Below are positions 7,291 through 34,110 of a stretch of 34,392 bases of DNA, piece by piece. Under the pieces are notes generated by a model, which did no database searches, was not told where the DNA came from, and saw nothing but the letters and a program-made list of their open reading frames with translations. This stretch comes from Actinomycetota bacterium. Lineage in GTDB: Bacteria > Actinomycetota > Geothermincolia > Geothermincolales > RBG-13-55-18. Position numbers and translations under genes: made by a program. Numbering within the stretch: position 1 is the first letter of the stretch; each line of letters begins with the position of its first letter. The stretch spans positions 1-34,392 of the forward strand of contig JAQVFR010000025.1 in assembly GCA_028697145.1 (NCBI GenBank). The letters are read 5' to 3'.

Positions 7291-7332
7291 ATAACACTGA
7301 CTTATATAAGTTTAATAAGTTTGGTAACTGAG

Positions 7333-8355
7333 ATGGTAAGGCCATTAAGAATCATTTACGACGGCGCGCACTACCACGTGATTTCACGGGGTAACATGAA
7401 GCACTTCATTTTTCCCGATGAAGGTGATAAGAAGTATTTCGTTTCTTTGCTCGGAAGAGGTGCCGAAAGATACATGGTGGAGGTCTACGCGTATTGCGTT
7501 ATGGGAAATCATTACCACTTACTCATACAGACCATAAAAGCGAACCTTCCCGAATTCATGCATTTCCTCGGTTCGTCTTACGCAAGCTACCTGGCAAGGA
7601 AGGAATGGAAGGGACACATATTCGCTGGAAGATATAAGGCGATTTGCATCGAAAGAGAAGAGTACTTTCTAGGCCTGCAGAGATATATCCATTTGAATCC
7701 AGTAAGGGCGGGTATCACCACGAGGCCGGAGCATTACCCATGGTCGAGTTATGCTTATTTCGTCGGAGATTCCGCAGCGCCCGAATGGCTTTCGAGTGAT
7801 TGGATAAAGGAATACTTCGGTGCTGAAGAACGGAAAAACAGGAAGGCCTTAAGGGAGTTTATGGAAGAAGGTATCGTCTCGCCGTCCGCATATCCGTGGG
7901 ATAGAGTCGTGGCTCAGTCGATCCTCGGCAGCGACGATTTCGTGAAGAAAATCCTCGAGAGCCAACCCGTCGCGGACTCTCCAGAGATACTAGGAAGGGG
8001 ATGTTTCGCCAAACAGCTTACCCTGGAGCAGGTTGAGGAGGGCGTATGCGAGAGGTTTGGGCTGCTGGATCTCACACGTGAGGCTGCAACAAGTAGCGAA
8101 GTACTCAGGAGCGCCAGAAAGTTGCTTATCTACCTGGCAAAGGAATACACGGTATCAACTAATCGTCAGATCGGCGAGACAATTGGAGTGAACAATCCCT
8201 ATGCGGTGGCAAATCAGTATACACGGATTCGAAGGAGACTGCGGGAAGATGCTCGATTCGTCCGCTCATTCGGCCAGGAAGTAAAGATGATAATTGAAAT
8301 GATAGGTGAAATTACTATTAGCAATGCTAATAAAATGATGAATGTTAAGGGCTGA
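7333..8355 (+). CDS. REP-associated tyrosine transposase (Y1_Tnp, PF01797-like) with DnaA-C-like tail
   Basis: 340 residues starting at ATG 7333; MVRPLRIIYDGAHYHVISRGN is the classic opening of this family. The HUH metal-binding motif is H60-Y61-H62 in MGNHYHLLIQT, and YIHLNPVRAG near residue 118 holds the candidate catalytic tyrosine. These single-strand endonucleases nick and join hairpin-ended elements or REP sequences. The region at about 250-320 (VLRSARKLLIYLAKEYTVSTN, then QIGETIGVNNPYAVANQYTR, each shortened) resembles the helix-turn-helix of the DnaA C-terminal domain, a known fusion in a subset of these transposases. The last eight residues, NKMMNVKG being shared with the left end, are encoded within the right inverted repeat, which also supplies TGA. 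Confidence 0.9.
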   Translation: MVRPLRIIYDGAHYHVISRGNMKHFIFPDEGDKKYFVSLLGRGAERYMVEVYAYCVMGNHYHLLIQTIKANLPEFMHFLGSSYASYLARKEWKGHIFAGRYKAICIEREEYFLGLQRYIHLNPVRAGITTRPEHYPWSSYAYFVGDSAAPEWLSSDWIKEYFGAEERKNRKALREFMEEGIVSPSAYPWDRVVAQSILGSDDFVKKILESQPVADSPEILGRGCFAKQLTLEQVEEGVCERFGLLDLTREAATSSEVLRSARKLLIYLAKEYTVSTNRQIGETIGVNNPYAVANQYTRIRRRLREDARFVRSFGQEVKMIIEMIGEITISNANKMMNVKG

Positions 8356-8561: not shown

Positions 8562-9752
8562 TCAGCGGCGTCGCCATGGCTTTCCCATGCGGACGCACAT
8601 CAGCGGGTCTGGGCCGCCCGGCCCGGCCATCAATTCGGCCCGGAAGCGGCAACCGCCGCCACATTCCGCGAGGACATCGCACTCCGCGCAGGACCCTGCC
8701 AGGTGCATCTTCGGCAGCTCGAGCCAGGCGCGCCGCAGGCCCCCCTCGGCGCCGGCTTCCCCGCCGTCCTCCTCACGGTAATAGCCGCACTTCACCAGGC
8801 GCCCTCCCGGCTCGACGTTGGCCAGGTGGGCCCCGCAGGCATATCCCGGGGACCCCTCGTGCGCCCCCCAGCCCCATTCCATCTCGAACAGCGGCGCCGC
8901 CGCCTCGAGGTCGGGCATGAGCTCGCGGTTCTCCCGCATCCGCCCCCACTCCACGGGGTACTCCAGCGTCCAGGAGCGCACGTCCATCTCGAAAAGGATC
9001 TCCCCCAGGCGCTCCAACTCGTGCAGGTTACGGGAATGGATCACCGTTGCCACGGAGACGTCGATGCCCGCCTGCAGGGTGCGCCGCAAGGCCTTGAAAG
9101 CATTGCCATAAGAGCCGCCCCCCCTCAGGAAGTCGTGGCCTTCCTCCAGCCCGTCCAGAGAGTATTGTATCTCCCTGAAGTTGAGGCCCCGCAGATCTAT
9201 CCCTTCCATGAGGGTGCCGTTGGAGATGAGCACGGCGCGGAAGGACCTCTGTGCCAGCTCCCGGTTGAGCAGCTCGAAGTGGGGGTAGAGGAGGGGCTCG
9301 CCGCCGGTCACCATCAGGCGCAGCCCGCCCATGTCGTCGAAGTCCTCGATGATCCGCCGCGCCGTCTCCCACTCCAGGTCCGCCGTGCCCACGCCCCCCA
9401 GGTAGCAGTGGCGGCAGCGCAGGTTGCAGCGGTCTGTGACCTCCACCATGAGGTAGCGCAGGGAAGGGTTCTCGTTGCGCCCTACGACGATAACCCTCCG
9501 CCCCGGCCTGTCCAGGACCTCGAGCACCTCCTCCTCCAGGCAGTAAGCGAGGAAATCCTCCTCGGGCTCGAGCTCTTCCGCCGTATGCGTGCCGTCGCAG
9601 CGGGACAGCAATTCCATGGCCTGCGGCGACAACTCGTAGAGCTCGTCATTCTCCACGTCGTAGACGCACGGCATCTCGAGGGACTTCAGGAAGAACCTGC
9701 CGCCCAACCTGAGGTAATATTTCCCGGTAGGTCCGCCGTTGTCCGAGCTCAT
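8562..9752 (-). CDS. Radical SAM/SPASM peptide maturase
   Basis: 396 residues from ATG 9752. Residues 1-90 resemble a PqqD-like leader-recognition fold (YDVENDELYELSPQAMELL). The radical SAM motif is DRCNLRCRHC (Cys109, Cys113, Cys116), followed by the glycine-rich MVTGGEPL. The C-terminal SPASM domain has seven cysteines (306, 322, 355, 358, 364, 368, 386), enough for two auxiliary iron-sulfur clusters, as in PqqE, AlbA and anSME-type enzymes. Such enzymes make thioether or C-C crosslinks in peptides, or oxidise side chains. With a 21-residue Cys peptide gene just downstream and a small Cys protein upstream, peptide maturation is the most likely job. The product of the reaction is unknown. 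Confidence 0.88.
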   Translation of the reverse strand: MSSDNGGPTGKYYLRLGGRFFLKSLEMPCVYDVENDELYELSPQAMELLSRCDGTHTAEELEPEEDFLAYCLEEEVLEVLDRPGRRVIVVGRNENPSLRYLMVEVTDRCNLRCRHCYLGGVGTADLEWETARRIIEDFDDMGGLRLMVTGGEPLLYPHFELLNRELAQRSFRAVLISNGTLMEGIDLRGLNFREIQYSLDGLEEGHDFLRGGGSYGNAFKALRRTLQAGIDVSVATVIHSRNLHELERLGEILFEMDVRSWTLEYPVEWGRMRENRELMPDLEAAAPLFEMEWGWGAHEGSPGYACGAHLANVEPGGRLVKCGYYREEDGGEAGAEGGLRRAWLELPKMHLAGSCAECDVLAECGGGCRFRAELMAGPGGPDPLMCVRMGKPWRRR

Positions 9753-9814
9753 TCCCCGTATACTCCCGGATACGCAACGGCGTGCATCCCCACGACGCTT
9801 TTGCCAGATCGCAT
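9749..9814 (-). CDS. Possible 21-codon upstream peptide coupled to the maturase start
   Basis: ATG at 9814 is preceded by AGGGGGTG with 8 bases spacing, and its TGA overlaps the ATG of the maturase (ATGA overlap). It reads MRSGKSVVGMH then AVAYPGVYGE. Only 13 of 21 third positions are G or C, well below local genes, so it may be a coupling leader or chance. The same frame is open back to the TAG of the gene at 9908. Confidence 0.25.
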   Translation of the reverse strand: MRSGKSVVGMHAVAYPGVYGE

Positions 9815-9907
9815 GCGGAACACCCCCTGGTCCGATATCTCATCCCTTACGGCGGAATCAAGCGCCGGGAACTGGCGCGCTCCGGCGCAGCGCTCGCCCT
9901 GAAGCCG

Positions 9908-18900: not shown

Positions 18901-20463
18901 TTGGAGCTGAAAGATTATATAAACGTAATCTGGAAGAGGAAGTGGTGGGTCATCGCCTCTATCGTGCTGGTGACCGCTGCCGCGCTGCTCTTTTCTTTTT
19001 TCCTGCAGGAGACCGTATACCAGGCCTCGTCGTGGGTGGTGGTCAAGGAGAAACCGCTGGAGAGCAGCGTCCTCCAGGAGACCATCAGCGAGCTGTCGAG
19101 CCAGCCGGAGAGGTCGCTGCAGACCCATGTGGAGCTGATCAAGACCAAGGAGATGGCGGGCAAGGTCGCGGAAGCCCTGGAGCTCGACCTCACACAGCAG
19201 GAGCTCATGGCCAGGATAAGCGTCGAGCCCTTGAGCAACACCAACATCATCGTGATCAAGGCCGCCGACCATTACCCCGAACGGGCCAGGGACATCTCCA
19301 ACCAGTACGCAATCGCCTACCAGGAATGGAGGCGCTCGGAGAACGTCAAGGAGATCTCCAAGGCCAGGGGGGAGGTATGGGAGGTGCTGCAGGCCACCAA
19401 GGACGAGGCCATAGAGCTGTCGCGCGAGATCGAGGCGCGTTTCGGCAACCAGGCTATCCCCGAGGAGCTCAAGGTCGAGCAGCAGATAGCCTACAGTTAT
19501 TACGTGGACCTGCAGCGCATGTACCGCGAGCTCTCCATATCGGAAGACCTCATGTCCGGCGGCCTGGAGGTCATCGTCGACAGCGACGCGCCCTCCAGCC
19601 CCGTGAATCCCCGCCCGGTGCGCAACGGCGTGCTCGCCTTTTTCCTGGGGGCCATCCTCGGGCTGGGCCTGGCCTTCCTGGTCGATTACCTGGATGACAC
19701 CATCGAGACACGGGAGGAGGCGCAGCGCCTCTACGAAGCGCCGGTCCTGGGAGAGATCCCGCGCTCCCGCGAACTCGAGGGAGAGCAGCGCCGCTCCTCG
19801 CTGGTGATGGTAACGGAGCCCAAGTCCCCCATAGCCGAGTCCTTCCGTGCCCTGCGCACCAACATCCAGTACGTCAACTACGAACGCCAGCTCAAGGCGC
19901 TCATGGTCACCAGCGCCGGCCCCGCAGCGGGAAAGACCTTCGTGCTGGCCAACCTCGCTGTATCGCTGGCGGAGGCCGGCCACCGCGTGATCGTGATCTG
20001 CTGCGATATGCGCCGCCCCACCCTGCACGAGTTCTTTCACCTCAGCAACGCCGTGGGGCTGTCCACGGTGCTGGTGGGGAAGAAGACCTTCGAGGAATCC
20101 TTGAAGAGCTCCGGCAAGCGCAACCTGCAGGTGCTCACCAGCGGCCCCCTGCCGCCGAACCCATCCGAGCTGATAGGCTCTCGCCGCATGAACGAGCTGC
20201 TTGCCCAGGCGAAGTCCATGGCCGACTTCATCCTCATCGACACCCCTCCGGTGCTCGCCGTCTCAGACGCGGCCGTCCTCGCACCGCGCACCGACGGGGT
20301 GCTGGTGGTCTGCGGCATGGGCAGCGCCAAGCGGGACGAAGCCCGCAAGACCCGCGACATGCTGCAGCAGTTGAAGAGCAACCTGGTGGGGGTGGTGCTC
20401 AATTACACGGAGGAAGCCAGGAGCTACGGCTACTATTACCACTACAACCACACCGCGAAGTAA
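18901..20463 (+). CDS. Wzc/CapB-type polysaccharide co-polymerase and tyrosine kinase, paralogue 1
   Basis: 520 residues from TTG 18901; the opening MELKDYINVI is shared by all three paralogues in the window, which supports this start despite a poor ribosome site. Wzz-type N-terminal part with membrane segments at about 17-35 and 242-262 around a coiled-coil extracellular region. The cytoplasmic kinase has Walker A GPAAGKT (about 340-346), Walker A' VIVICCDMRRP and Walker B DFILIDTPPVLAVSDA. The tail EARSYGYYYHYNHTAK is the tyrosine cluster that is autophosphorylated in this family. These proteins control length and export of surface polysaccharide. Confidence 0.9.
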   Translation: MELKDYINVIWKRKWWVIASIVLVTAAALLFSFFLQETVYQASSWVVVKEKPLESSVLQETISELSSQPERSLQTHVELIKTKEMAGKVAEALELDLTQQELMARISVEPLSNTNIIVIKAADHYPERARDISNQYAIAYQEWRRSENVKEISKARGEVWEVLQATKDEAIELSREIEARFGNQAIPEELKVEQQIAYSYYVDLQRMYRELSISEDLMSGGLEVIVDSDAPSSPVNPRPVRNGVLAFFLGAILGLGLAFLVDYLDDTIETREEAQRLYEAPVLGEIPRSRELEGEQRRSSLVMVTEPKSPIAESFRALRTNIQYVNYERQLKALMVTSAGPAAGKTFVLANLAVSLAEAGHRVIVICCDMRRPTLHEFFHLSNAVGLSTVLVGKKTFEESLKSSGKRNLQVLTSGPLPPNPSELIGSRRMNELLAQAKSMADFILIDTPPVLAVSDAAVLAPRTDGVLVVCGMGSAKRDEARKTRDMLQQLKSNLVGVVLNYTEEARSYGYYYHYNHTAK

Positions 20464-21367: not shown

Positions 21368-21400
21368 CCAGGTGCGAGTGGCCGCTGCCCGGAGGTGCGC

Positions 21401-23935
21401 ATGAAGGGATCGCTTATCGGGGGTAGAAAGAAGCCGGCAAGGACCACCCTTACTCTCTTCGCCGCCCTCGCGGTCTGCATGGCCCTTTTTCCCGCCTCGA
21501 TGGCGCAGGGGGTACAAGGCGAAGTCGAAGCGGTGACGCCGGAGATAAAGGCGGATCCGCTGGGCAGGCTCCCTTCCACCCCCGAGGAAGCTCACCAGCG
21601 CCTCGCTTCCCGCGAAAGCCCGTGGCCTGACGGGGAAGGCGCAGAGGGAGATTTCGAAGCTGCCGGCGTGCGGCCCGGGCTGTTTGTCGCCATCCCCTTC
21701 GACACCGTGGAGGGATTTACCACCAATGCCAACTCGGATGTGAGGGTCGAGCTTTGGCGTGGAGCGACACATCTGTACGACATAACCACCAAGACCAACA
21801 ACGACAGATGGTTCTATGCGAGTTTTTACGATGTGGGCAGGAACATACAGTCGGGAGACTCGATCAAGGTGACTGACCTGGCAGACATGGCTACCGTAAC
21901 CGTAAACTGTACGCTTACGGGCAGCGTGAATATGACCAACAAGAGGGTCTCCGGAAGTGCACCTACGGGCAACCAGGTTGACGTCTATCTCAAGACCCCC
22001 AACACCTACTACGTCCCAAGCACCTACTACGGCGATACCCCGCCGTGGGTGGCGCACCGCAGGGTAACCGCCTCCGGAGGTGCGTATGTCGCGGACTTCA
22101 CCGGCACCAGTATCCGTAACGGCGACGTGGCATATGTCTATTCCACCAACACCGGGGATCACGTGGTGATGAACATCGCCAGGACCGGCCCCATCCTGGT
22201 GGTCTATCCCCAGTACGACGAGGTCATGGGCTTCTACGATCCGGGCGCAAGCGTGACCGTAAAGGCGGGGACCGCCACCCAGGCCGTGGGTACGGCCGGC
22301 GAAGGCTTCTTCGACGCCTGGTTCATGGACCACGATATCGTCCCGGGCGAGCAGGTATCGTCCGGCAGCCTGGGCACCCCCCGCTCCATCACCGTGGGGG
22401 ATGTCGCCGCGACCGCGGATCCCATCACCGATGTGGTCCGGGGCTTTGCGCCGCCCGACCGGCCCATGCGCATCACCATGAACACCTACCGCGGCCCGGT
22501 GATGGTGGAGCTGCGCAGCGACGCCTCGGGCAACTACGCTTACGATTTCACGGGCACCTACGACATCTCCGGCATCGAGGTCTACAACGTGGCCTGGTAC
22601 AACGACGCCGGCGACTGCGTCGTTTACGAGTTCTTTACCTACAGCTGGTTCCTGCCCGAGGGATACACCGGGCCGGGCTTTGACGAGTGGGTGCTGGTGA
22701 TGAATCCTGGCGCCAAGATCGCCCAGGTAAGGGTGGTTTTTCAGACCCTCGCCGGCCAGGTGGAGGGGCCGCTCATTGACGCCCGGCCGGGCTCCCGCGT
22801 CACGGTGCACGTAAACCAGTGGACGCCCATGAGCCACGTCTCCACCATGGTCACCGCTATCGACGGCGCCTCCATCATGGCGGAGCGCGCCATGTACATG
22901 TACGAGACGGTCGACGGTAAGTGGGGCTCCCACGATTCCATCGGCATCCTTTCGCCCAGCCCGGTATGGTACCTGCCCGAGGGGGCTACCTACTTCGGTT
23001 TCGACCAGTGGGTGCTCATCCAGAACCCCAACAACGTCGCGGTGCGCACCAGGGTGCAGTTCCTGGAGAGGGGAGGGGTGGCCGAGGAATTATACGTGGA
23101 TATCGGCGCGACGAGCCGCTACACGGTGCACGCCAACGAGTTCGTCCCCGATACGGAGATATCGACGCGGGTGGAATCCCTGACCGAGGAGAACGGGGAG
23201 GTCCTGCCGGTGTTCGCCGAGCGCGCCATGTACATGGCGACAGCGGATGGCAAGGTCGGCGCCCACGATTCCATCGGGCTCTCCACCCCGGCGCCGGAAT
23301 GGTATCTGCCAGAGGGGACCACCCGACCGGGCTTCGACGAGTGGGTGCTGGTGATGAACCCCAACCTGGCCGGGACCACCGTGCGGGCTACCTTCCTCAC
23401 GCCTGACGGGGTGGGAGGCACCTACGAGATGTATATGTCGGGCAATTCGCGCGGCAGCATCCACGTCAACGACTACGTCGTGGGCCAGGACGTATCCACC
23501 GTGGTGACCTCCCTGGAAGGGGCGGGCATCCTGGCGGAGCGTGCCATGTATATCAACACCGCGGACGGCAAGAGGGGCGCCCACGACTCCATTGGCGCCT
23601 ATCAGACCAGCACCTACTGGTACCTGCCGGAGGGTACTACCCGCCCCGGCTTCGACCAATGGGTCCTGGTGCAGAACCCCAATGATGCTCCCGCGGAGGT
23701 AAGGGTGACCCTGCTGGGGCCGGACGGCCCGGCGGCACAGACCGGCTTTATCATGCCGGCCAACAGCCGCAGGACGGTGCACGTGAACGAGATGGTCGAC
23801 AACCTGGACGTGTCCACGGTGGTGGAATGCATCGGAGCCAGCCCGGTGTGCATACTGGCCGAGCGCGCCATATACATGTGGACCGCCGACTTCAAGCAAG
23901 GCGCCCACTGCTCCATCGGCGTCCCTGCCCTCTAG
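21401..23935 (+). CDS. Large secreted protein with four DUF5719-like C-terminal repeats
   Basis: 844 residues from ATG 21401, which has GGAGG five bases upstream. Signal peptide: TTLTLFAALAVCMALFPASM with cleavage near AQG. Residues about 80-405 are beta-rich, with Ig or bacterial adhesin-like units (VRVELWRGATHLYD, VDVYLKTPNTYYV). From about 416, four units of 105-110 residues each carry WYLPEGTTRPGFDEWVLV, then NPN, HVNE, then VSTVV, then AERAMYM and GAHDSIG. This layout matches DUF5719-type surface proteins of Actinomycetota. No LPXTG or membrane anchor is present, so attachment may be non-covalent. A REP-like array begins at the base after the stop. Confidence 0.85.
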   Translation: MKGSLIGGRKKPARTTLTLFAALAVCMALFPASMAQGVQGEVEAVTPEIKADPLGRLPSTPEEAHQRLASRESPWPDGEGAEGDFEAAGVRPGLFVAIPFDTVEGFTTNANSDVRVELWRGATHLYDITTKTNNDRWFYASFYDVGRNIQSGDSIKVTDLADMATVTVNCTLTGSVNMTNKRVSGSAPTGNQVDVYLKTPNTYYVPSTYYGDTPPWVAHRRVTASGGAYVADFTGTSIRNGDVAYVYSTNTGDHVVMNIARTGPILVVYPQYDEVMGFYDPGASVTVKAGTATQAVGTAGEGFFDAWFMDHDIVPGEQVSSGSLGTPRSITVGDVAATADPITDVVRGFAPPDRPMRITMNTYRGPVMVELRSDASGNYAYDFTGTYDISGIEVYNVAWYNDAGDCVVYEFFTYSWFLPEGYTGPGFDEWVLVMNPGAKIAQVRVVFQTLAGQVEGPLIDARPGSRVTVHVNQWTPMSHVSTMVTAIDGASIMAERAMYMYETVDGKWGSHDSIGILSPSPVWYLPEGATYFGFDQWVLIQNPNNVAVRTRVQFLERGGVAEELYVDIGATSRYTVHANEFVPDTEISTRVESLTEENGEVLPVFAERAMYMATADGKVGAHDSIGLSTPAPEWYLPEGTTRPGFDEWVLVMNPNLAGTTVRATFLTPDGVGGTYEMYMSGNSRGSIHVNDYVVGQDVSTVVTSLEGAGILAERAMYINTADGKRGAHDSIGAYQTSTYWYLPEGTTRPGFDQWVLVQNPNDAPAEVRVTLLGPDGPAAQTGFIMPANSRRTVHVNEMVDNLDVSTVVECIGASPVCILAERAIYMWTADFKQGAHCSIGVPAL
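22645..23930 (+). repeat. Four in-frame repeats of about 320 bases in the secreted protein
   Basis: Units start near 22645, 22966, 23299 and 23620, each with the codons for W-[FY]-LPEG. Protein similarity is far higher than base identity, so the duplications are old and kept by selection. Confidence 0.8.
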
Positions 23936-24041: not shown

Positions 24042-25151
24042 TTAGAAGCGGCGGCGTCCCTTGTACATATGCAGGGGCATGTAGGCCAGGCCGCGGGCGC
24101 GCGCGAGGGGCGTGTCGGACAGCATGAAGAACAGCAGGTTCGCGGGGGTGTAAGAGCGGGACCTGTGGCCGGGCAGGGCCTGGACCGGCAGGGCACGATG
24201 GAAAGCCTTCATCGCGGCGTAGGAGGGGAGCACGGAAGCAAGCGTGCCCGCGGGGATGGAGAAGCCCTCGTTCATCTCGGCCAGGTAACGCAGACCGGGG
24301 CCCACGAAGCTGCATACCTTCCAGCGCCGACACCATCCTTCCAGCGCCTCCCAGTCCACCTCGTGCCTTCGCGTTATCTCCAGGACGTCGCGGAACTTGA
24401 TCAGCCGCGCGTAGCGGTGGTTCACCGCCGCGTCGAGCAAGGTCGTGATCACCAGGTGCTCCGGGCTCATGGCCCATGAGGGCATCCCCTCCAGCTCCAC
24501 CGGGGCCGCCTCGGCCCACAGGTCCTCCGCGCGGAAGGCGGTACGGCGTTCGTACTCCTCGGGCCAGTGCATGCCGACGTGTATGTCGATCTCCATGGCG
24601 GTCTCGCTTCCTTCTACGGGCAGCGAGTACACGGTGCAAGCGGGGGCGGGGACGAAGGCGGGACGCCCGGGGGCGGGGGTGAAACCGGCCGCGAGCAGGA
24701 CGTCGTTAAGCGCCGCCAGTGACGAACGCTCCACCAGCAGGTCAAGGTCCTTGAAGGTGCGGGCACCCTTCCTCTCGAAGGTGGCGGAAGCGAGATAGAA
24801 CCCCTTGAGCGGGATCGCGCGGATACCGGCTCTATCCAGCGCGCCCAGTGCCTTCAGCGCACCGTAGTGGATGAGGGCGGTGCGAGCCATCTCCCGGGCA
24901 TGGACCCGCGACCACCTCTCCAGGAGTTGCGGCGGCAGGGTCAAAGGGAAGCCCGATGCGGAACAGTCCACGGCGACCGTGTGCAGGAGGGATTCCATTT
25001 CATGGTAGGCGGCGTTCTCCTCCAGCCTGCCGGTCTCACGGACGTCGACGTCCGACGCCGACTCCGCGATGCGGCTGGCCCGTACCGCTTCCCCGTAGCG
25101 GTAGGCCACCGCGTCCAGGAGGAACGTATCGGCGCGGTCATCCGCGTGCAT
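24042..25151 (-). CDS. Nucleotidyltransferase-family protein (NTP_transf_5 / PF14907-like)
   Basis: About 369 residues from ATG 25151; earlier in-frame starts (TTG 25169, ATG 25196) are possible. The core AIPLKGFYLASATFERKG and ARTFKDLDLLVERSSL is the nucleotidyltransferase active-site region, with the paired Asp of DLDLLV as metal ligands. A second block, AMEIDIHVGMHWP, supplies the third acidic strand, and HLVITTLLDAAVNHRYARLI and KFRDVLEI follow as in this family. Members occur in lasso peptide clusters of Bacillota and in polysaccharide loci; the acceptor is unknown. It is divergent from the B2-PqqD-kinase-radical SAM operon, which makes it a likely sixth member of that pathway. Confidence 0.85.
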   Translation of the reverse strand: MHADDRADTFLLDAVAYRYGEAVRASRIAESASDVDVRETGRLEENAAYHEMESLLHTVAVDCSASGFPLTLPPQLLERWSRVHAREMARTALIHYGALKALGALDRAGIRAIPLKGFYLASATFERKGARTFKDLDLLVERSSLAALNDVLLAAGFTPAPGRPAFVPAPACTVYSLPVEGSETAMEIDIHVGMHWPEEYERRTAFRAEDLWAEAAPVELEGMPSWAMSPEHLVITTLLDAAVNHRYARLIKFRDVLEITRRHEVDWEALEGWCRRWKVCSFVGPGLRYLAEMNEGFSIPAGTLASVLPSYAAMKAFHRALPVQALPGHRSRSYTPANLLFFMLSDTPLARARGLAYMPLHMYKGRRRF

Positions 25152-25535
25152 CTGCGCCCCGGGTTTCAATCCTCCCCGGGCATGTTTTGTGGGCACTTTG
25201 CCGCCGGCCTTTCGTTTCCCCCCACTCCATCAAAACCGTATATTGAGTCCCTACGGGGAATCCGCGGGGATGATACACCCACCATTTATTTCCTACTGTG
25301 GTTTACGTCATATGCCCTGGAAATATGAGAGAAAATCTGGAAATAGGTAACTTGGGGCGCGAACGGCGCCGCCGGGGGGGTGAAAGGCTGCTTCGCTGAC
25401 AGGCGGTAAGTAATGAGAGGGCTTTCGATTGCCGGGACGGCCGGGCGCCGCTTGCGGACAAATGCGGCACTGCCTGTCCGGTTCCGCGTGCGTCCGCCGC
25501 TGCCCCTGAAAACCCCCATGGTTTATACTTGGTGC
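25152..25535. promoter_or_regulatory. Divergent control region with a -10 box suited to a leaderless mRNA
   Basis: This 384-base gap holds no convincing gene. TATACT at 25524-25529 lies exactly six bases before ATG 25536, so transcription would begin at the A of the start codon. No Shine-Dalgarno site precedes that ATG, which agrees with a leaderless mRNA, a common mode in Actinomycetota. No clear -35 box is seen. A moderately A+T-rich stretch at 25270-25350 could hold the promoter for the divergent gene. Confidence 0.45.
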
Positions 25536-25958
25536 ATGAAAGAGACACAACAGTCCTGGTTGCTCGAGATGTGGAATATAAAGGTAAACAAGTGGCGCGA
25601 GGCGGTACGCGTCTACGCGCGTTCCGGTGCCGCCCTGCTGCGCGCCTTTATCTCCCCGGCGCTGGAGATGCGCGGGCTGGAACGCCGGCTGGCGGGAAGG
25701 CGCGGAGCGTGCGAGGAAGAGGTGCTGCGACGTAGCGGCAAATGGTTCGCCCTCCTGGACAAGGCGGGCTTGCGGCCGTCCTGCCTGGTGCGCTCGCTGA
25801 CCCTGGCGCGCGTGCTGCGCGAGGAAGGCCACGATGCCCACCTGGTTTTCGGCGTGCGCTCAGGCAACGGAGACGTGGAGGGACATTGCTGGGTCGCGGT
25901 GGACGGAAGGCCCCTCACCGAGGCGCCGCGCAGCTTCAAGGAGCTGAAGAATGGTTAA
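25536..25958 (+). CDS. Lasso-type B2 leader peptidase (transglutaminase-like)
   Basis: 140 residues from ATG 25536, the usual length of stand-alone B2 proteins. The Cys-His-Asp triad is visible: Cys83 in RPSCLVRSLTLARVLREEGH, His117 in VEGHCWVAVDG and Asp123 in the same motif. The pattern SCLxRSLxLxxxLxxxGxxxxLxxGVR is diagnostic of the lasso peptide B2 family (PF13471), which removes leader peptides after the Thr-rich leader end. A small oddity is Cys118 where Ala is usual in the His motif. It overlaps the PqqD-like gene by 8 bases. No ribosome site; likely leaderless first gene of the operon. Confidence 0.88.
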   Translation: MKETQQSWLLEMWNIKVNKWREAVRVYARSGAALLRAFISPALEMRGLERRLAGRRGACEEEVLRRSGKWFALLDKAGLRPSCLVRSLTLARVLREEGHDAHLVFGVRSGNGDVEGHCWVAVDGRPLTEAPRSFKELKNG

Positions 25959-26262
25959 GAAAGCAGGTGGCGCGCCCGGGCTCGGCCCGCTGTCCAGGCT
26001 CCGGCGCGTCGAGGGCGTAGCCTGGCGGGTGATCGGGGAAGAGGCGGTCCTGGTCAACGTGCGCAGCGACGAGGTCATGCACCTCAACAGCGCCGCCTCG
26101 TTCCTGTGGTCCAGCCTGGACGGAAGGGCGTCGCTCGAGGAGATAGCGCTGTCCATGACGGGGCAATACGACGTGGACGCCGACACGGCGCTGTCCGACA
26201 GCGTGGCATTCGCGTCAGAGCTCGTGGAACAGGGAGCGGCAGAGGTTGTCGAGCCGGGCTAG
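25951..26262 (+). CDS. PqqD-like leader-peptide-binding protein (lasso B1 / RRE type)
   Basis: 103 residues, ATG 25951 with AAGGAG upstream inside the B2 gene. It follows the PqqD fold: three strands (VAWRVIGEEAVLVNVRSDEV), the MHLNSAASFLWSSLDG helix and a C-terminal helical pair ending LVEQGAAEVVEPG. PqqD-fold proteins bind the leader of precursor peptides by beta-strand pairing and hand them to the peptidase and modifying enzymes. Being stand-alone and overlapping the B2 gene, it corresponds to B1 of split lasso systems. Its expected ligand is the YEKPQM region of the peptide at 28223. Confidence 0.88.
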   Translation: MVKKAGGAPGLGPLSRLRRVEGVAWRVIGEEAVLVNVRSDEVMHLNSAASFLWSSLDGRASLEEIALSMTGQYDVDADTALSDSVAFASELVEQGAAEVVEPG

Positions 26263-27148
26263 GACCTACCTCATCGCCGGGCTGCGCCTGAAGATAATCT
26301 CGTCCGTGGGGGAAGCGGCCACCTTTCTGCCGCCAGTCATGGACGCTTTCGTCACCTCGGGGACGGAGGCGGCCGACCTCACCATAACCCTTTACTACGA
26401 CGAGGAGGCGCAGGCCGACCCCCTGCGCCGCTTCTTTCCCCCGCAGTTCATGATGGAGATCCGCGACGGCGGGTTTTCCTTCGACGGCATGGAGGGCAGG
26501 AGAAAGCGCCTGGGGCTTGTATCCGCCGGGTGCGCCGGCGCGGAGATGGGGCTTCCTCTCCTGGACACCGCCTGGCGCATTAGCGAGGAAGAGGAGGCGT
26601 TGCGGGAAGCCCTGCAGGCTTTCGTGCGGGCCTGCCTGCAGTGCCGCCTCCTGCAGGAAGGCGGCACCCTCGTGCACGCCGCCGCTATCGACTGGGAGGG
26701 GGACGGTTTCGCGTTCGCCGGCCATACCCGGGCCGGCAAGACAACCCTCAGCCGCGGTTTCGCCGCGGAGTGCGTGCTGGGGGACGACCTGGCGGCGGTG
26801 GGCAGGGGCCCGCGAGGCTTCACGCTTTACGGCACGCCCTGGCCGGGGAGGGAAGGGGGGATAGTCGCCTACGGAGGGGTGCCGCTGCGGGCCGTATTCA
26901 ACCTCCACCCCGAGATGGACACCGGCCTCTATCGCCAGTCTCCCGGGGAGGCCCTGGCCGACCTGGCCGCGAACGCGCCCCGGCTCGGGTACGGTGGAGA
27001 GGAAAGCAAGCTCCTGGGAGTATTTTCAAGTTTGGTCGAGACCGTCCCGATATACAGATTGAGCTTGAGACTGGGCGATGACGCAGCTGTCTATCTGCGG
27101 CGTGTCTCGGCGGAGGAAGGTGAAGGGCAATGGAGAAGACCGACCTAG
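26246..27148 (+). CDS. HPr-kinase-like (HprK-type) kinase of a peptide-modification cluster
   Basis: 300 residues from TTG 26246, with GGAG and GAGG just upstream; it overlaps the PqqD gene by 17 bases. The N-terminal half is unconserved, while the C-terminal half has FAFAGHTRAGKTTLSRGF, a P-loop (159-166), followed by CVLGDDLAAV, the acidic pair of the HPr kinase fold. Kinases of this type in paeninodin-like lasso clusters phosphorylate the C-terminal Ser of the precursor (established for that class). A true HPr kinase role is unlikely because the P-loop GHTRAGKT differs from GxSGxGKS and no PTS gene is near. Substrate here is inferred to be the cluster peptide. Confidence 0.82.
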   Translation: MSSRARTYLIAGLRLKIISSVGEAATFLPPVMDAFVTSGTEAADLTITLYYDEEAQADPLRRFFPPQFMMEIRDGGFSFDGMEGRRKRLGLVSAGCAGAEMGLPLLDTAWRISEEEEALREALQAFVRACLQCRLLQEGGTLVHAAAIDWEGDGFAFAGHTRAGKTTLSRGFAAECVLGDDLAAVGRGPRGFTLYGTPWPGREGGIVAYGGVPLRAVFNLHPEMDTGLYRQSPGEALADLAANAPRLGYGGEESKLLGVFSSLVETVPIYRLSLRLGDDAAVYLRRVSAEEGEGQWRRPT

Positions 27149-28233
27149 AATTCGTGGACAGGATCTTCCAGGAAAGCGTACCGTATTCGGGCAGCCTGGA
27201 ATTGACCCACCGCTGCAATCTCGCCTGCCGGCACTGCTACCAGTTTTCGCCCGGGGACCGGAGCGAACTGGGCACTGGGCAGTGGATGAAGGTCATGCAG
27301 GAACTCGCTTCGGCCGGCTGCCTTTTCCTGGCCTTCACCGGGGGGGAGCCGCTCTTGCGCGAGGACCTGCCGGAGCTTATCCGCGCCGCCGCCGCCATGC
27401 GCTACGCGATCACCCTGCAGACCAACGCCGTGCTCCTGGGGGAGGCCGATGCCCGCATGCTGGGGGATATGCCCACGGTGAGGGTGGACGTGAGCGTCTA
27501 CGGTGCAAGGCCGGAGACGCACGACCGCCTGACGGGCATGCGGGGCTCCTTCGCCGCAACGCGCCGCGCCCTGGAGCTGCTGCGCGAAAACGGGGTCCCG
27601 GTGCTGCTCAAGGTCACGGTCGGCGACTTCAACTTCGGCGAGATCGAGGACATCGCGCTCATGGCCGACGGCCTGGGCGTCAAGGCCGTGTTCTCGTCCC
27701 TTATCTTTCCCCGCAACGACCGCGACGCGGCGCCCACCTCGCTGCGCCTGGAGGACGCGGAACTGGAGCGCTTTATAGATTTCGACGCGCGCTACATGCT
27801 GGACAACATGGGCGAGCTCATGGGGGTCGATGCGGGGGAGCTGGCGTACCCAGACCTTGTCGACTACCTTCACAAGTGCGCCATAGACCCCGCCCGGGTG
27901 CGGAGCGAACATCGGCGCTACTGCGGCGGCGGCAGCACCGTGTTCGCCATCAATCCCTACGGGGACGTATATCCTTGTGTCGCCTTCCCCCTTGTGGTAG
28001 GAAATATCTTGCAGTATAGTTTCGTCGAGATATGGAAGAAATCTCCGGAGCTTCTGCGCCTCAGGGCCCAGGAGGACGAGCTTCCCCGGGAATGCAGGGA
28101 GTGCGACCTCCTGGACAGATGCGCGATATGCAGGGCGCTGTCTTTCCTCGAGGGAGGAGAGGCGATGGCCTTCAGCAGGGAGAGGTGCAGGCAGACACGT
28201 GCTCTAGTAAAGGTGCTCGCGGATGAAGGATGA
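27130..28233 (+). CDS. Radical SAM/SPASM enzyme of the lasso-like cluster
   Basis: 367 residues, ATG 27130 with GAAGG upstream, overlapping the kinase gene by 19 bases. Radical SAM motif LTHRCNLACRHC (Cys29, Cys33, Cys36) and FTGGEPLLREDL are near the N-terminus. The SPASM part has cysteines 250, 265, 283, 322, 325, 331, 334 and 353, around GSTVFAINPYGDVYPCVAFP and ECRECDLLDRCAICRAL, consistent with two auxiliary [4Fe-4S] clusters. The fold is close to PqqE and sactipeptide or ranthipeptide maturases, which form C-C or thioether bonds. No N-terminal RRE is fused; leader binding is probably left to the PqqD protein. The precursor gene overlaps its 3' end by 11 bases. Confidence 0.9.
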   Translation: MEKTDLEFVDRIFQESVPYSGSLELTHRCNLACRHCYQFSPGDRSELGTGQWMKVMQELASAGCLFLAFTGGEPLLREDLPELIRAAAAMRYAITLQTNAVLLGEADARMLGDMPTVRVDVSVYGARPETHDRLTGMRGSFAATRRALELLRENGVPVLLKVTVGDFNFGEIEDIALMADGLGVKAVFSSLIFPRNDRDAAPTSLRLEDAELERFIDFDARYMLDNMGELMGVDAGELAYPDLVDYLHKCAIDPARVRSEHRRYCGGGSTVFAINPYGDVYPCVAFPLVVGNILQYSFVEIWKKSPELLRLRAQEDELPRECRECDLLDRCAICRALSFLEGGEAMAFSRERCRQTRALVKVLADEG

Positions 28234-28375
28234 TTCAGGCGACAGGAAGGCATACGAGAAGCCGCAGATGAGCGTGATGCGCATAAACCGCTTCTTCTTC
28301 GGCTCATGCATGGAATTGTGGCCAAACTGTTATTCGCAGTACATGTTCGTGTCGGGCGCCGCGTCGTGCCGCTGA
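28223..28375 (+). CDS. 50-residue candidate RiPP precursor with a lasso-type YxxPxM leader motif
   Basis: ATG 28223 lies inside the end of the radical SAM gene, with AAGGTG seven bases upstream. The peptide starts MKDDSGDRKAYEKPQM, and the YEKPQM box (Tyr11, Pro14, Met16) matches the YxxPxL motif that PqqD/B1 proteins recognise in lasso leaders. The second half contains FFFGSCMELWPNC and then YSQYMFVSGAASCR, with Cys29, Cys36 and Cys49, one Trp and many aromatics, unlike the charged leader. It ends Ser-Cys-Arg. All five plus-strand genes overlap, so peptide and enzymes are translationally coupled. Family not recognised; the cleavage site and bonds are unknown. It could be a fragment of a larger protein, but SD, overlap and motif argue for a precursor. 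Confidence 0.72.
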   Translation: MKDDSGDRKAYEKPQMSVMRINRFFFGSCMELWPNCYSQYMFVSGAASCR

Positions 28376-28930: not shown

Positions 28931-29866
28931 ATGGGCGGCCTGACCGGAAAGTTCGGGCTGGGCGGAGGGTTTGCCGGCCGCAGGGGACCTGGGTGGCCGG
29001 TGGCTGCCGCGATTATCTTGTTGAGCGTGCTGGTGATAGCCAGCTTTTTCCTCTACCTGTCGAGGCTCTCGGGCGCTTCCTCCGGCGAGAACGATGCGGG
29101 CGGTCAGACCTTCACCCGGGACAGGGAGCGGATCGGCGCCCCCGAGAACGTCACGGTGACCGTCGATAAAGGCGCCACGGTAAGCTGGGAGGGCGAGGAT
29201 GACGTACGCATCATCGGATACAACATCTACCGTTACAAGGCGGGCGACGATCCCGGCAGCAAGGTGAACGCCGCCATCATCTCCGACACGGTGTACCACG
29301 ACGACGAGGGGACCATGTTCAACAGCTACGCCGTGGCGACGGTGGACGCCAGCGGCAGGGAGGGCGTCATGTCCGAGCCCGTGGCGGCGGTGCTGGAGCC
29401 GGCGTCTCTTTCCGGGCTGGCTCCCACCCGCGAGCCAGAAAAGGTGGAGGACGTGACCTTCAAGGGACCGCCCGAACAGAGCCTGCCGCCGACCCTCGTC
29501 GGCAGTACCGCCGAAGGCATGAGTTATAACGGGGTCTGGTACAAGGAACACTACGCGGACGTGACGGGCGGCGTGATCATGGTCACTCCTTATTACGGCG
29601 ACAGCGTGAGCTACACCTTCACCGGCGACAACGTCGCGGTGATATCGACCCGGCACTGGAACTACGGCATCATGGACGTATATATCGACGGCGAGCTGCG
29701 GCAGCAGGTGGACCTGTACTCGGCGCAGGTGAAGGTGAGGGACACCGTCTTCACCGCCACGGGGCTGGGGCCAGGCGCCCACACTGTCAAGCTGGTATGC
29801 ACCGGGAGCAAGAACCCCGACGCCGACTTCACCTTCATCAACCTCGAGGCCCTGCAGATCAAGTAG
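28931..29866 (+). CDS. Membrane-anchored fibronectin type III plus beta-sandwich surface protein
   Basis: 311 residues, ATG 28931 after GGAGGG. A short basic N-terminus precedes one membrane helix (VAAAIILLSVLVIASFFLYL, about 26-45). Residues 68-155 form an FnIII-like domain (ENVTVTVDKGATVSWEG, then IIGYNIYRYKAGDD). The C-terminal part from about 195 is a galactose-binding-like beta sandwich: VSYTFTGDNVAVIS, then MDVYIDGELRQQVDLYSAQV and HTVKLVCTG. The same kind of sandwich forms the protein at 31679. It is convergent with a Wzc-type kinase gene and probably sits on the cell surface, perhaps binding polysaccharide. Confidence 0.82.
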   Translation: MGGLTGKFGLGGGFAGRRGPGWPVAAAIILLSVLVIASFFLYLSRLSGASSGENDAGGQTFTRDRERIGAPENVTVTVDKGATVSWEGEDDVRIIGYNIYRYKAGDDPGSKVNAAIISDTVYHDDEGTMFNSYAVATVDASGREGVMSEPVAAVLEPASLSGLAPTREPEKVEDVTFKGPPEQSLPPTLVGSTAEGMSYNGVWYKEHYADVTGGVIMVTPYYGDSVSYTFTGDNVAVISTRHWNYGIMDVYIDGELRQQVDLYSAQVKVRDTVFTATGLGPGAHTVKLVCTGSKNPDADFTFINLEALQIK

Positions 29867-29982: not shown

Positions 29983-31641
29983 CTATCCTTTCCTGCGGAA
30001 GAGCCTGCGGCGGCCGCCCTCTTCCTCCTCCTCGGGCTGCGGGGTGTAGTAGTAATAATGGTAATAACCGTAGCGGGTCGACGGCGCTATGTTGTTGACC
30101 ACCAGGCCCAGGACGCGCGCGTTTACCTTGCGCAGCAGCTCGGAGGTGCGGCGGGCATCATCCCGCACCGCCTTTGCGTGGTTGGTCACGAAGATCACCC
30201 CGTCCACCATGGAGGCCAGGGCCATGGCGTCGGAGGCGGCCAGGACGGGAGGGGAGTCAACGAGTATGAAATCGGCGGACTCCTTGACCTTCTCCAGCAC
30301 GGCGCGCATGGCCTCGGAGGCCACCAGCTCGGCGGGGTTGGGCGGCTTCACTCCGGCCACCATGACGTAGAGGTTTTCGTAGCCGCCGGGCTGCACCGCC
30401 TCCTCCACGGAGATGTTGCCCGCCAGCACCCCGCTGATGCCCTTGCCCGGCGACACCTTGAAGTACTTATCCAGGACCGGCTTGCGCAGGTCGGCCTCGA
30501 TCATCAGCACTTTCTTCCCCATCTCCGACAGGGCCGCCCCGAGGTTGACCATCACCGTGGACTTGCCCTCCTCGGGTCCGGCCGAGGTGAAGAGGATGAC
30601 GCGGGCCTTGCCCTCCAGGTTGAGGAACTGCAGGTTGGTGCGCAGAGTGCGGTATCCCTCCACCGCGGGGTGCTGGGGCATCTCGAAGTAGACGATATGG
30701 TTCCGGGGGAGGTTCTCCCCCGAGATATGCGGTATCTCGCCTATGATCGAGGTGTCGTAATACCTCTCGAAGTCCTCCCGGGTGTGCAGTGTGTCGTCCA
30801 GGTATTCCACCAGGAAGGCCAGGCCCACTCCCAGGATGAGCCCCAGGAAGATGGCCAAGACGGCGTTGCGCGTGGGGCGCGGGCTGGTCTTTGTCCCGGA
30901 CTTCGCCGGCTGCACGATCTCCAGGCCCCGCTGCTCCAGGGATTCCGCGATGCGCAGGGTGACGTATTTCTCGTACAGTGCCACCCACAGGTTCACGGCG
31001 CGCTGGGCTTCGTTGAGTATCTCGGCGGGGACGTTTCTGCCCTCGTATTGCCTGGCCTGTTCCGTGGCCTGTCCTATCTCCTCCTCGACCTCCTGGATGC
31101 GGTTCCACACCTCGCGGCGCGCTTCGCTTATCTCGCGGATGGCGGCGAGCTGGCGGCTGGCGATGTATTCCTCCGCGTACGCCTGCGCGACGTCCCGGGC
31201 GAGCAAGCGGTCGTTGCTGGTTATGACGATGCCGAAGATGTTGGTGCGCTGCACCTGTTCCACGCCCACCATGGATGCCAGTTCGGAGGCAGCGGGAATC
31301 TCCTCGGGGATGTAAACGTCCTCGCCCTCCTGGCGCAGCCTCGCGTCTTCCTCGTACTTTATGTGCAGGGCGCTCTCCACAGCCTGGGCCATAGTGTCGG
31401 TCTTGATGATCTCCGTCTGGGTCTGGATGTAACGGTCGGGGTCGAAGAGGGCGGAGGTGAAGAAGCTGCCGAGCACCGATTCCGAGGCCGAGCTGACCTC
31501 GCTCAGGATCTCAACCTTGGACTGGTACACCGGCGCCTGCAGGAAGGTGAAGATGAGGGTGAGGGCGAGCACCACGGCTATGGTGCCGACAATGATCCAG
31601 CGGCGGTTGATGAGGACGTTGATGTAGTCCTTTAGCTCCAA
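29983..31641 (-). CDS. Wzc/CapB-type tyrosine kinase, paralogue 2
   Basis: 552 residues from TTG 31641, with GGAGGGGA directly upstream. N-terminal MELKDYINVLINRRWIIVG (membrane helix about 14-33), a coiled-coil region rich in Glu/Arg, and a second helix (RNAVLAIFLGLILGVGLAFL). Kinase motifs: GPEEGKSTVMVNLGAALSEM, VLMIEADLRKPVLDKYF and DFILVDSPPVLAASDAMAL. The C-terminus has a dense Tyr run (YGYYHYYYYTPQP), then five Glu and a basic end (RRRLFRRKG). The tyrosines are autophosphorylation sites in this family. The secreted protein gene at 31679 precedes it by 37 bases on the same strand. Confidence 0.92.
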   Translation of the reverse strand: MELKDYINVLINRRWIIVGTIAVVLALTLIFTFLQAPVYQSKVEILSEVSSASESVLGSFFTSALFDPDRYIQTQTEIIKTDTMAQAVESALHIKYEEDARLRQEGEDVYIPEEIPAASELASMVGVEQVQRTNIFGIVITSNDRLLARDVAQAYAEEYIASRQLAAIREISEARREVWNRIQEVEEEIGQATEQARQYEGRNVPAEILNEAQRAVNLWVALYEKYVTLRIAESLEQRGLEIVQPAKSGTKTSPRPTRNAVLAIFLGLILGVGLAFLVEYLDDTLHTREDFERYYDTSIIGEIPHISGENLPRNHIVYFEMPQHPAVEGYRTLRTNLQFLNLEGKARVILFTSAGPEEGKSTVMVNLGAALSEMGKKVLMIEADLRKPVLDKYFKVSPGKGISGVLAGNISVEEAVQPGGYENLYVMVAGVKPPNPAELVASEAMRAVLEKVKESADFILVDSPPVLAASDAMALASMVDGVIFVTNHAKAVRDDARRTSELLRKVNARVLGLVVNNIAPSTRYGYYHYYYYTPQPEEEEEGGRRRLFRRKG

Positions 31642-32439: not shown

Positions 32440-34110
32440 TCATCCCTTCAGCTTTTTCCTCCAGCCGCGGGAGCGCCCGGGACCGGCTCCCTCGCCCTCC
32501 CCGTAGGAGTAGCGATAGGGTGAATAGTAGCCGTAGCCGTATCGGCCCGCCATCTCGACGTTGTTGATGACCACGCCCAGGATGCGCGCCTCCACCTTGC
32601 CCAGCAGCTCCACCGTGTGCCGGGCCCCGTCCCTGGTGGCGATGTTATGGCTCGCCACCACCAGCACCCCGTCCATCATGGGGGCCATGGCGATGGCGTC
32701 GGATACAGCCAGCACGGGCGGGGCGTCCACGATGACGTAGTCGAAGTCGTCGCGCAGCCGCATGAGCAGGTCGTTCATCGCCTTCGACGACACCAGCTCC
32801 GCGGGATTGGGCGGCTTGGGGCCGGACATGAGCACGTGCAGGTACTCGTTGCCCGTATCCACCACCACCGCATCCAGCTCCGCGGTGCCCATGATCACGT
32901 CGGTGAGGCCCCTCTCGGACTCCTCCACCAGGAACTTGCCGATCACGGGGCGGCGCAGGTCGGCTTCCACCACCAGCACCCTCTTGCCCATCTCCGAGAG
33001 GGCGGCGCCGAGGTTTACCGCTACCGAGGTCTTGCCCTCCTCTGGGCTGGAAGAGGTTACCATGAGCAGCTGCGTGCCGCCGTCCAGGTTGAGGAACCGC
33101 ACGTTGGTGCGCAGGTTGCGGAAGCCCTCCGCCGCGGGGCTGTCCGGACGGGTGAAATAGATGATCTCGCGCTCTTCCTCGTCCATGGGGGTCGTCAGGG
33201 CTATCTCCCCGATGATGCCGGTGCCGTAATAGCGCTCGAAGTCCTCGCGGGTCTTCAGGGTGTCATCCATGTAGTCCACGAGGAAGGCCAGTCCCACCCC
33301 CAGGATGAGCCCCAGGAAGAGGGCCAGGACGGTGTTGCGGGTGGTGCGTGGGCTCACCTTCACGCCCTCCTCCGCCACCTCTATGACCTCCAGGCCGCGC
33401 TGTTCCAGCGCCTCGGCGATGCGCAGGCTCATGTACTTCTCGTAGAGGGTGGCCCACAGGCTGACCGCCTGGCTGGCCTGGGCCTGCAGCTCGGGGGGTA
33501 TGGTATCACTGGTGTACTGCTTGACCTCCTGGGCAATATCCGAGATCTGGGTCTCCAGCTCGGTGATGCGGTTCCATACCTCCTTGCGCGCGTCGCTGAT
33601 CTGCTTGACGGCCGCGAGCTGGCGGTCGAGGATGTACTCGTCGGCGTAGGCCTGGGCTATGTCCCGCGCCAGGAGGGGGTCGCCGTTGGAGACGGCGATG
33701 GCGAAGACGTTGGTGTTCTGGGCGCGCTCCACTCTGACGCTGTCCCTGAGCTCCGCGGGGGAGGGGATGGAGGCGGGTATGAACACCTCCTCGCCTTCCT
33801 CGCGGGCGTAGGCCAGCTCCTCGTAGTTGTACTCCAGGCGGTCGTAGACGGCCCGGGCCGTGGTCCGGGTGCCGATGATCTCCGCCTGGGTCTGGATGAA
33901 GGTCTGGGGGTCGTTGAGGGCCATGGAGAAGATGCTGTCGGTGGCGGATTCTCCTGCGCGGTTGATGTCGGCGAGGATCATCACCCGCGACTCGTACACC
34001 GGGTCCTGCAGCAGGGAGAAGACGAGAGCGGCGATTACCACCAGGGCGGTCACCCCGATGATGACCCACTTGCGTGCGACGATGACGTTTATGTAGTCCC
34101 TTAGCTCCAT
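32440..34110 (-). CDS. Wzc/CapB-type tyrosine kinase, paralogue 3
   Basis: 556 residues from ATG 34110, with AGGGAG just upstream. MELRDYINVIVARKWVIIGV leads into the first membrane helix; the second is NTVLALFLGLILGVGLAFLV. Between them is a coiled-coil extracellular part. Kinase motifs: SSPEEGKTSVAVNLGAALSE, VLVVEADLRRPVIGKFL and DYVIVDAPPVLAVSDAIAM. The tail is Tyr-rich (RYGYGYYSPYRYSYGEGEG) and ends basic. It is closest to paralogue 2 over most of its length (for example DDTLKTREDFERYYGTGIIG against DDTLHTREDFERYYDTSIIG), so these two are a more recent duplication than paralogue 1. Confidence 0.92.
   Translation of the reverse strand: MELRDYINVIVARKWVIIGVTALVVIAALVFSLLQDPVYESRVMILADINRAGESATDSIFSMALNDPQTFIQTQAEIIGTRTTARAVYDRLEYNYEELAYAREEGEEVFIPASIPSPAELRDSVRVERAQNTNVFAIAVSNGDPLLARDIAQAYADEYILDRQLAAVKQISDARKEVWNRITELETQISDIAQEVKQYTSDTIPPELQAQASQAVSLWATLYEKYMSLRIAEALEQRGLEVIEVAEEGVKVSPRTTRNTVLALFLGLILGVGLAFLVDYMDDTLKTREDFERYYGTGIIGEIALTTPMDEEEREIIYFTRPDSPAAEGFRNLRTNVRFLNLDGGTQLLMVTSSSPEEGKTSVAVNLGAALSEMGKRVLVVEADLRRPVIGKFLVEESERGLTDVIMGTAELDAVVVDTGNEYLHVLMSGPKPPNPAELVSSKAMNDLLMRLRDDFDYVIVDAPPVLAVSDAIAMAPMMDGVLVVASHNIATRDGARHTVELLGKVEARILGVVINNVEMAGRYGYGYYSPYRYSYGEGEGAGPGRSRGWRKKLKG

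Follow-up and report, generated by a model that had tools for sequence, protein, structure and literature searches.

The paeninodin and pseudomycoidin lasso peptide pathways, the StsB/StsC sactipeptide pathway, and the SynChlorMet cassette are the known systems closest to a six-gene cluster analyzed here, which lies at positions 24042 to 28375 of a 34,392-nucleotide stretch of DNA (hereafter the window) from the class Geothermincolia, an uncultured and deep-branching lineage of Actinomycetota. Paeninodin and pseudomycoidin, which belong to the B1/B2 split type, have in common with this cluster a pair made of a B2 protein and a recognition element (RRE) of ribosomally synthesized and post-translationally modified peptides (RiPPs), as well as a YxxP leader, a kinase, and a nucleotidyltransferase (NTase) (PMC8498205); the Geothermincolia cluster, however, has no lasso C protein, no Thr at position -2, and no acceptor Asp or Glu, but three invariant Cys residues, a radical S-adenosylmethionine (SAM) enzyme, and a kinase apparently of another lineage. 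The StsB/StsC pathway, found in Actinomycetota, shares a discrete PqqD-type RRE, a leader motif of the W/Y/LxxP type, and a SPASM enzyme (PMC12710340), and differs from our locus, where B2, kinase, and NTase are present. SynChlorMet (ScmC, TIGR04249; ScmD, TIGR04248; ScmE, TIGR04250) likewise combines an HprK-like kinase, a PqqD protein, and a SPASM radical SAM enzyme, and the corresponding proteins here each give a sub-cut-off match; nevertheless, all scores are far below the curated cut-offs (e.g., 134 bits against 400), the operon is without the second radical SAM gene (ScmF), B2 and NTase are added, and the precursor differs. Neither our gene set nor SynChlorMet was described in the literature searched, from which subscription papers were mostly absent.

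The six genes appear to form a pathway that yields a small three-cysteine peptide, which a lasso-type protease would probably trim, and which a radical SAM enzyme, not a lasso ring-closing enzyme, would probably cross-link. The gene set, its conservation and co-inheritance, the lack of a cyclase gene, and the genuineness of the peptide gene are firm, and the pathway is real, conserved, apparently undescribed, and not a lasso variant. We consider it likely that the cluster is a radical SAM/SPASM RiPP pathway whose leader-processing unit is of the two-part lasso type, operating by the steps proposed below. Five genes lie on the plus strand and overlap successively by 8, 17, 19, and 11 bases, as calculated from their coordinates. 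They encode a predicted B2-type leader peptidase, a transglutaminase-like Cys protease (25536..25958; PF13471, 59.8 bits; NF033537 lasso_biosyn_B2, 53.6 bits against a cut-off of 33), for which the longest open reading frame (ORF) gives an alternative upstream start at 25413; a PqqD-type RRE, the putative leader binder (25951..26262; PF05402, 57.7 bits), kept in 13 genomes; a putative peptide Ser/Thr kinase of HprK/PEPCK fold with a TTG start (26246..27148; Walker A GHTRAGKTT, a DD motif, and the AlphaFold fold); a radical SAM/SPASM enzyme, the putative cross-linker (27130..28233; PF04055, 85 bits; PF13186, 46 bits); and a precursor peptide of 50 amino acids (28223..28375). Upstream and divergent, on the minus strand, is the gene of an NTP_transf_5 nucleotidyltransferase-fold protein (24042..25196; PF14907, 114 bits), the putative phospho-glycosylation partner of the kinase. 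A preliminary description of this DNA had listed the same genes, positions, and overlaps, and the coordinates and profiles bear it out.

The peptide ORF is real and not a chance frame, because it stands beside the radical SAM gene in 13 genomes and is under purifying selection. Indeed, pairwise nonsynonymous change (dN) is far below synonymous change (dS), e.g., 0.16 vs. 1.46, changes at third codon positions are about double those at the other positions, and the strongest constraint within the peptide falls on leader residues 11-28. Conservation of a short ORF beside the radical SAM gene had been proposed as a check in the preliminary description, and it was found in 13/13 relatives. An AAGGTG ribosome-binding-like site is located at 28210-28215, 7 bases upstream of the ATG. 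Residues 1-28 (28223..28306, plus strand), with the pattern YxxPxMxVxRINRFFFG(G/S), form the putative leader, and residues 29-50 (28307..28372, plus strand), which in relatives read CxxxWPNCYS...PGAARCR, the putative core. Among the 13 orthologues, Y11, P14, M16, V18, I21, R23, F24, and F25 are invariant in the leader, and C29, C36, Y37, and C49 in the core; at position 38, 12 have Ser and one has Thr, whereas W33 and P34 are kept in all but one. No conserved aromatic-X-X3 triceptide motif was found in these cores. A triceptide (three-residue cyclophane) formed through W-P-N was rejected, as WPN occurs in 9/13 peptides, the others having WPQ, WPY, WPL, or no Trp, so that X3 is not conserved. 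In three distant lineages, the first Cys is soon followed by a Trp, which may still take part in a link.

Among the 31 genomes of the class that were searched, with the radical SAM enzyme counted as present at E <= 1e-40, B2, radical SAM, peptide, and NTase co-occur in the same 13 and in none of the remaining 18. These 13 genomes, recorded under names such as Candidatus Solincola and Candidatus Geothermincola, represent two of the three families of one order and, being related to one another, are not independent. The order B2-PqqD-kinase-radical SAM-peptide is kept in 13/13, although in G001 it is split across two contigs, and each genome carries one peptide copy, with a core about as conserved as the enzymes; an extra peptide match in G006 (16 residues, E 0.004) was discounted. 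In G016 and G017, the NTase gene lies on a separate contig from the operon, adjoining a surface-protein gene, and since it is unlinked there and still co-occurs, its co-occurrence is informative.

The features expected of SPASM radical SAM RiPP pathways are found here, namely the CxxxCxxC motif, the SPASM Cys residues, and a short co-inherited precursor adjoining the enzyme in 13/13 genomes. In the 12 full-length enzyme sequences, CxxxCxxC and the seven Cys of the SPASM region are all invariant. By predicted fold and by profile, the nearest solved structures are SkfB, PqqE, and SuiB, which cross-link RiPP precursors; the NF045574 match is sub-cut-off (123.5 bits). B2 exceeds the NF033537 cut-off in all 13 genomes, with Cys and His invariant, and had no sequence match in the PDB. 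The kinase gave no Pfam match, only weak TIGR04355/TIGR04249 ones, and is predicted to have the HprK/PEPCK fold and P-loop, its AlphaFold model (mean predicted local distance difference test 91) matching PEPCK (1e-8) and HPrK (4e-4) in Foldseek. Kinases of radical SAM cassettes form one group in the kinase tree, apart from those beside other B2 genes (support 94/98), although many of the rows for the latter, lasso-type kinases are partial.

We infer the leader binding, step order, cleavage site, bond type, phosphorylation site, and NTase reaction as follows. PqqD would bind the YxxPxM leader and so bring the peptide to the SPASM enzyme, by which at least one cross-link, most likely a thioether, would be formed around the conserved Cys. 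Cys-centred cross-links are the simplest reading, because the core holds three invariant Cys, and these make a thioether of the sactipeptide kind, from Cys to an alpha carbon, or of the ranthipeptide kind, to a beta or gamma carbon, plausible. The RRE-B2 pair would then remove the leader, probably directly before C29, leaving a peptide of about 22 residues. A single PqqD could supply substrate to the radical SAM enzyme as well as to B2, since YxxP-binding RREs serve lasso, pyrroloquinoline quinone (PQQ), and sactipeptide pathways, which have in common the YxxP leader and the discrete PqqD-type RRE (PMC12710340). The HprK-like kinase would phosphorylate the peptide, with the invariant Ser/Thr38 as the best candidate. 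In pseudomycoidin, the kinase phosphorylates Ser and a protein annotated as a nucleotidyltransferase adds a hexose to the phosphate (PMC8498205); by analogy, the pairing of kinase and NTase suggests phospho-glycosylation of Ser/Thr38, the NTase perhaps adding a sugar or a nucleotide to that phosphate.

Several observations weigh against this scheme. The cleavage site is uncertain, given that the residues preceding C29 vary (GG, GS, LH, GL, SM). None of the cores offers the C-terminal Ser that the paeninodin kinase modifies; they end in Arg, except one in Gln and another in Cys-Arg-Leu-Phe. The third position of the catalytic triad of B2, a C96-like cysteine protease, is not conserved, being Glu or Gly where Asp would be expected from McjB. 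Furthermore, the Geothermincolales operon contains no transporter gene, the alignments behind both structure models are shallow, and confidence in the enzyme model is low in its SPASM region.

In favor of the proposed pathway are related cassettes outside the class. In a sample of 397 Actinomycetota genomes, B2 was detected in 34 genomes outside the class; an Asn-synthetase-like (C-like) gene was nearby at 16/34 of these loci, while at 18/34 none was present in the flanking sequence examined, which was short in some cases. A missing C protein near B2 is thus common in the phylum and not remarkable alone, whereas adjacency to a radical SAM gene is. Only one of the 34 loci, in G138 (L129) from another family, has the corresponding operon, B2-kinase-PqqD-radical SAM followed by a YEKP peptide of ~60 amino acids (CAAWGFRFGDPGC), an ATP-binding cassette (ABC) ATPase, and an ABC permease. 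When the phylum was scanned with the radical SAM profile, five candidates per genome were scored and G138 was missed, and absence of the pathway outside the class is therefore not established. Other cassettes of kinase, PqqD, and SPASM enzyme likewise end in YxxP Cys-peptides, in the same neighborhood and order as here, with an S24/S26-type peptidase in contrast to our B2. The actinomycete G312 (L153:1-7700) carries two in tandem, whose Cys-containing cores differ, with the peptidase gene between them, an ABC ATPase gene adjoining, and no B2. A GTDB scan with two specific patterns, reaching mostly close relatives, returned the source order and a few distant matches, among them a spartobacterium, outside Actinomycetota, with kinase-PqqD-radical SAM-YEKP peptide (CDSGWVPRRTCMTQGQSGC)-S24/S26-like peptidase-NTase and no B2 (L058:3118-7062). 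In G317 (L085), PqqD, radical SAM, and a short YxxP-type Cys-peptide stand alone.

Judged by sequence, kinase, PqqD, SPASM enzyme, and YxxP Cys-peptide make up a broader kind of predicted unit, in which the putative leader peptidase varies, S24/S26-type in some cassettes and B2 in Geothermincolales and G138. Since the G312 and L058 cassettes do without B2 and have an S24/S26-type peptidase, it may be B2 that was swapped in; the B2 tree has long branches and could not place the G138 protein, so one and two recruitments of B2 are indistinguishable. Separately, in six loci of another phylum family, f27 (L144, L145, L148, L150, L139, and L135), kinase, PqqD, and B2 genes adjoin, with neither a cyclase nor an adjacent SPASM enzyme, and at several f27 loci a CxxxCxxC protein (e.g., CARRCGYC) stands beside them; these loci are possibly another B2 RiPP type without a cyclase.

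Among the alternatives, a serious one, to which we nonetheless give less than even weight, is that the same enzymes make a resident conserved peptide (a redox cofactor, a metal ligand, or a component of the cell surface or exopolysaccharide) instead of an antimicrobial or signal meant for export. Unlike arms-race peptides, this one is present once per genome, with a core that shows purifying selection and a degree of conservation close to that of the enzymes; the operon encodes no exporter; its neighbors code for surface or secreted proteins or are Wzz/Wzc-type polysaccharide genes; and the similarity of the SPASM enzyme extends to PqqE and the mycofactocin enzyme. However, in G138 an ABC exporter follows the peptide, and in family f3 the operon is apart from the NTase and surface-protein locus. 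The fullest version of our proposal, a new RiPP class whose Cys cross-linked, phosphorylated, and phospho-glycosylated peptide is released by RRE-B2 without a cyclase and kept order-wide as a cell-surface or cofactor peptide, not an antimicrobial, is put forward tentatively and is, taken as a whole, unlikely.

Less probable still is that B2 would act as a modifying enzyme, amidase or transglutaminase-like, instead of as the leader peptidase. PF13471 is a broad transglutaminase-like family, B2 also matches, weakly, a glutamine deamidase family, the precursors show no conserved lasso cleavage motif, and the triad Asp is not conserved; against this, NF033537 is above its cut-off in 13/13 genomes, an RRE is encoded adjacently as in split lasso proteases, and sister cassettes have an S24/S26-type peptidase instead.

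The preliminary description had called the cluster lasso-like, with the radical SAM/SPASM enzyme in place of the cyclase. What stands of this interpretation is a RiPP cluster that pairs a lasso-type RRE (PF05402) with B2 (NF033537, above cut-off) and has a radical SAM/SPASM enzyme but no cyclase; the lasso-like character does not. Lasso leaders carry an invariant Thr at -2 (PMC10885120), with an Ile exception (PMC10368454), whereas in the 13 precursors Thr is not conserved close to any site where cleavage is plausible, nor is there a conserved acidic residue, the Asp/Glu acceptor, in the core; the kinase, moreover, falls apart from the kinases beside other B2 genes. Because there is no C protein, no Thr at -2, and no conserved acceptor acid, the predicted product is not a lasso peptide, and the Thr and acceptor, as features of the precursor, are independent of the window edges. 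Placing the enzyme in the position of the cyclase was also too lasso-centred, as the G312 and L058 cassettes combine kinase, PqqD, SPASM enzyme, and YxxP peptide with no B2. A cyclase beyond the window had been raised as a possibility; no Asn-synthetase gene (PF00733, a model that matched in 11/14 control genomes) was found on the cluster contigs of any of the 13 genomes, and G002 had no match whatsoever. A true lasso pathway with its cyclase elsewhere in the genome is highly improbable, for although B1/B2-type proteins, kinase, and NTase all occur in Bacillota lasso clusters (PMC8498205) and the source genome has one full-length Asn-synthetase-like gene, its sole strong one, that gene sits in a glycan locus without B1/B2.

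Two neighboring plus-strand genes are not claimed for the pathway. Beside the NTase gene, a DUF5719-like surface protein (21395..23935), noted from synteny, has repeated WYLPEGTTRPGFDEWVLVMNPN-type units; surface proteins were rejected as pathway members, since this family is multi-copy in 31/31 class genomes (~10-44 matches in each), which makes adjacency weak evidence. On the other side lies a membrane-anchored protein with FN3-like and carbohydrate-binding-like regions (28931..29866), whose family members adjoin the operon in most of the relatives that have sufficient flanking sequence, and do so in both families. The surroundings of the operon in family f1 are genes for secreted or surface proteins along with Wzz/Wzc-type polysaccharide genes, and in f3 FN3/carbohydrate-binding-like secreted proteins likewise adjoin it. 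This neighborhood hints at a surface role, though the families involved are large. Within the window, three genes of the Wzz/Wzc chain-length/tyrosine-kinase-like type flank the cluster on both sides (18901-20463, 29983-31641, and 32440-34110). Farther away are an IS200-like transposase (7321-8355), with a weak match to the DnaA C-terminal helix-turn-helix, and a second radical SAM gene (8562-9839, minus strand), which has no SPASM domain and is unrelated to the cluster.

In brief, uncultured Actinomycetota carry a compact pathway with a strongly conserved precursor, which suggests that the RRE-B2 pair is a portable module able to serve a radical SAM maturation enzyme. NF033537 gives these B2 genes, which are not in lasso clusters, a lasso name, and given that probable portability the presence of B2 should not be annotated as a lasso peptide. 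Moreover, the system raises the question of whether a kinase and a partner of nucleotidyltransferase fold may phospho-glycosylate radical SAM peptides.

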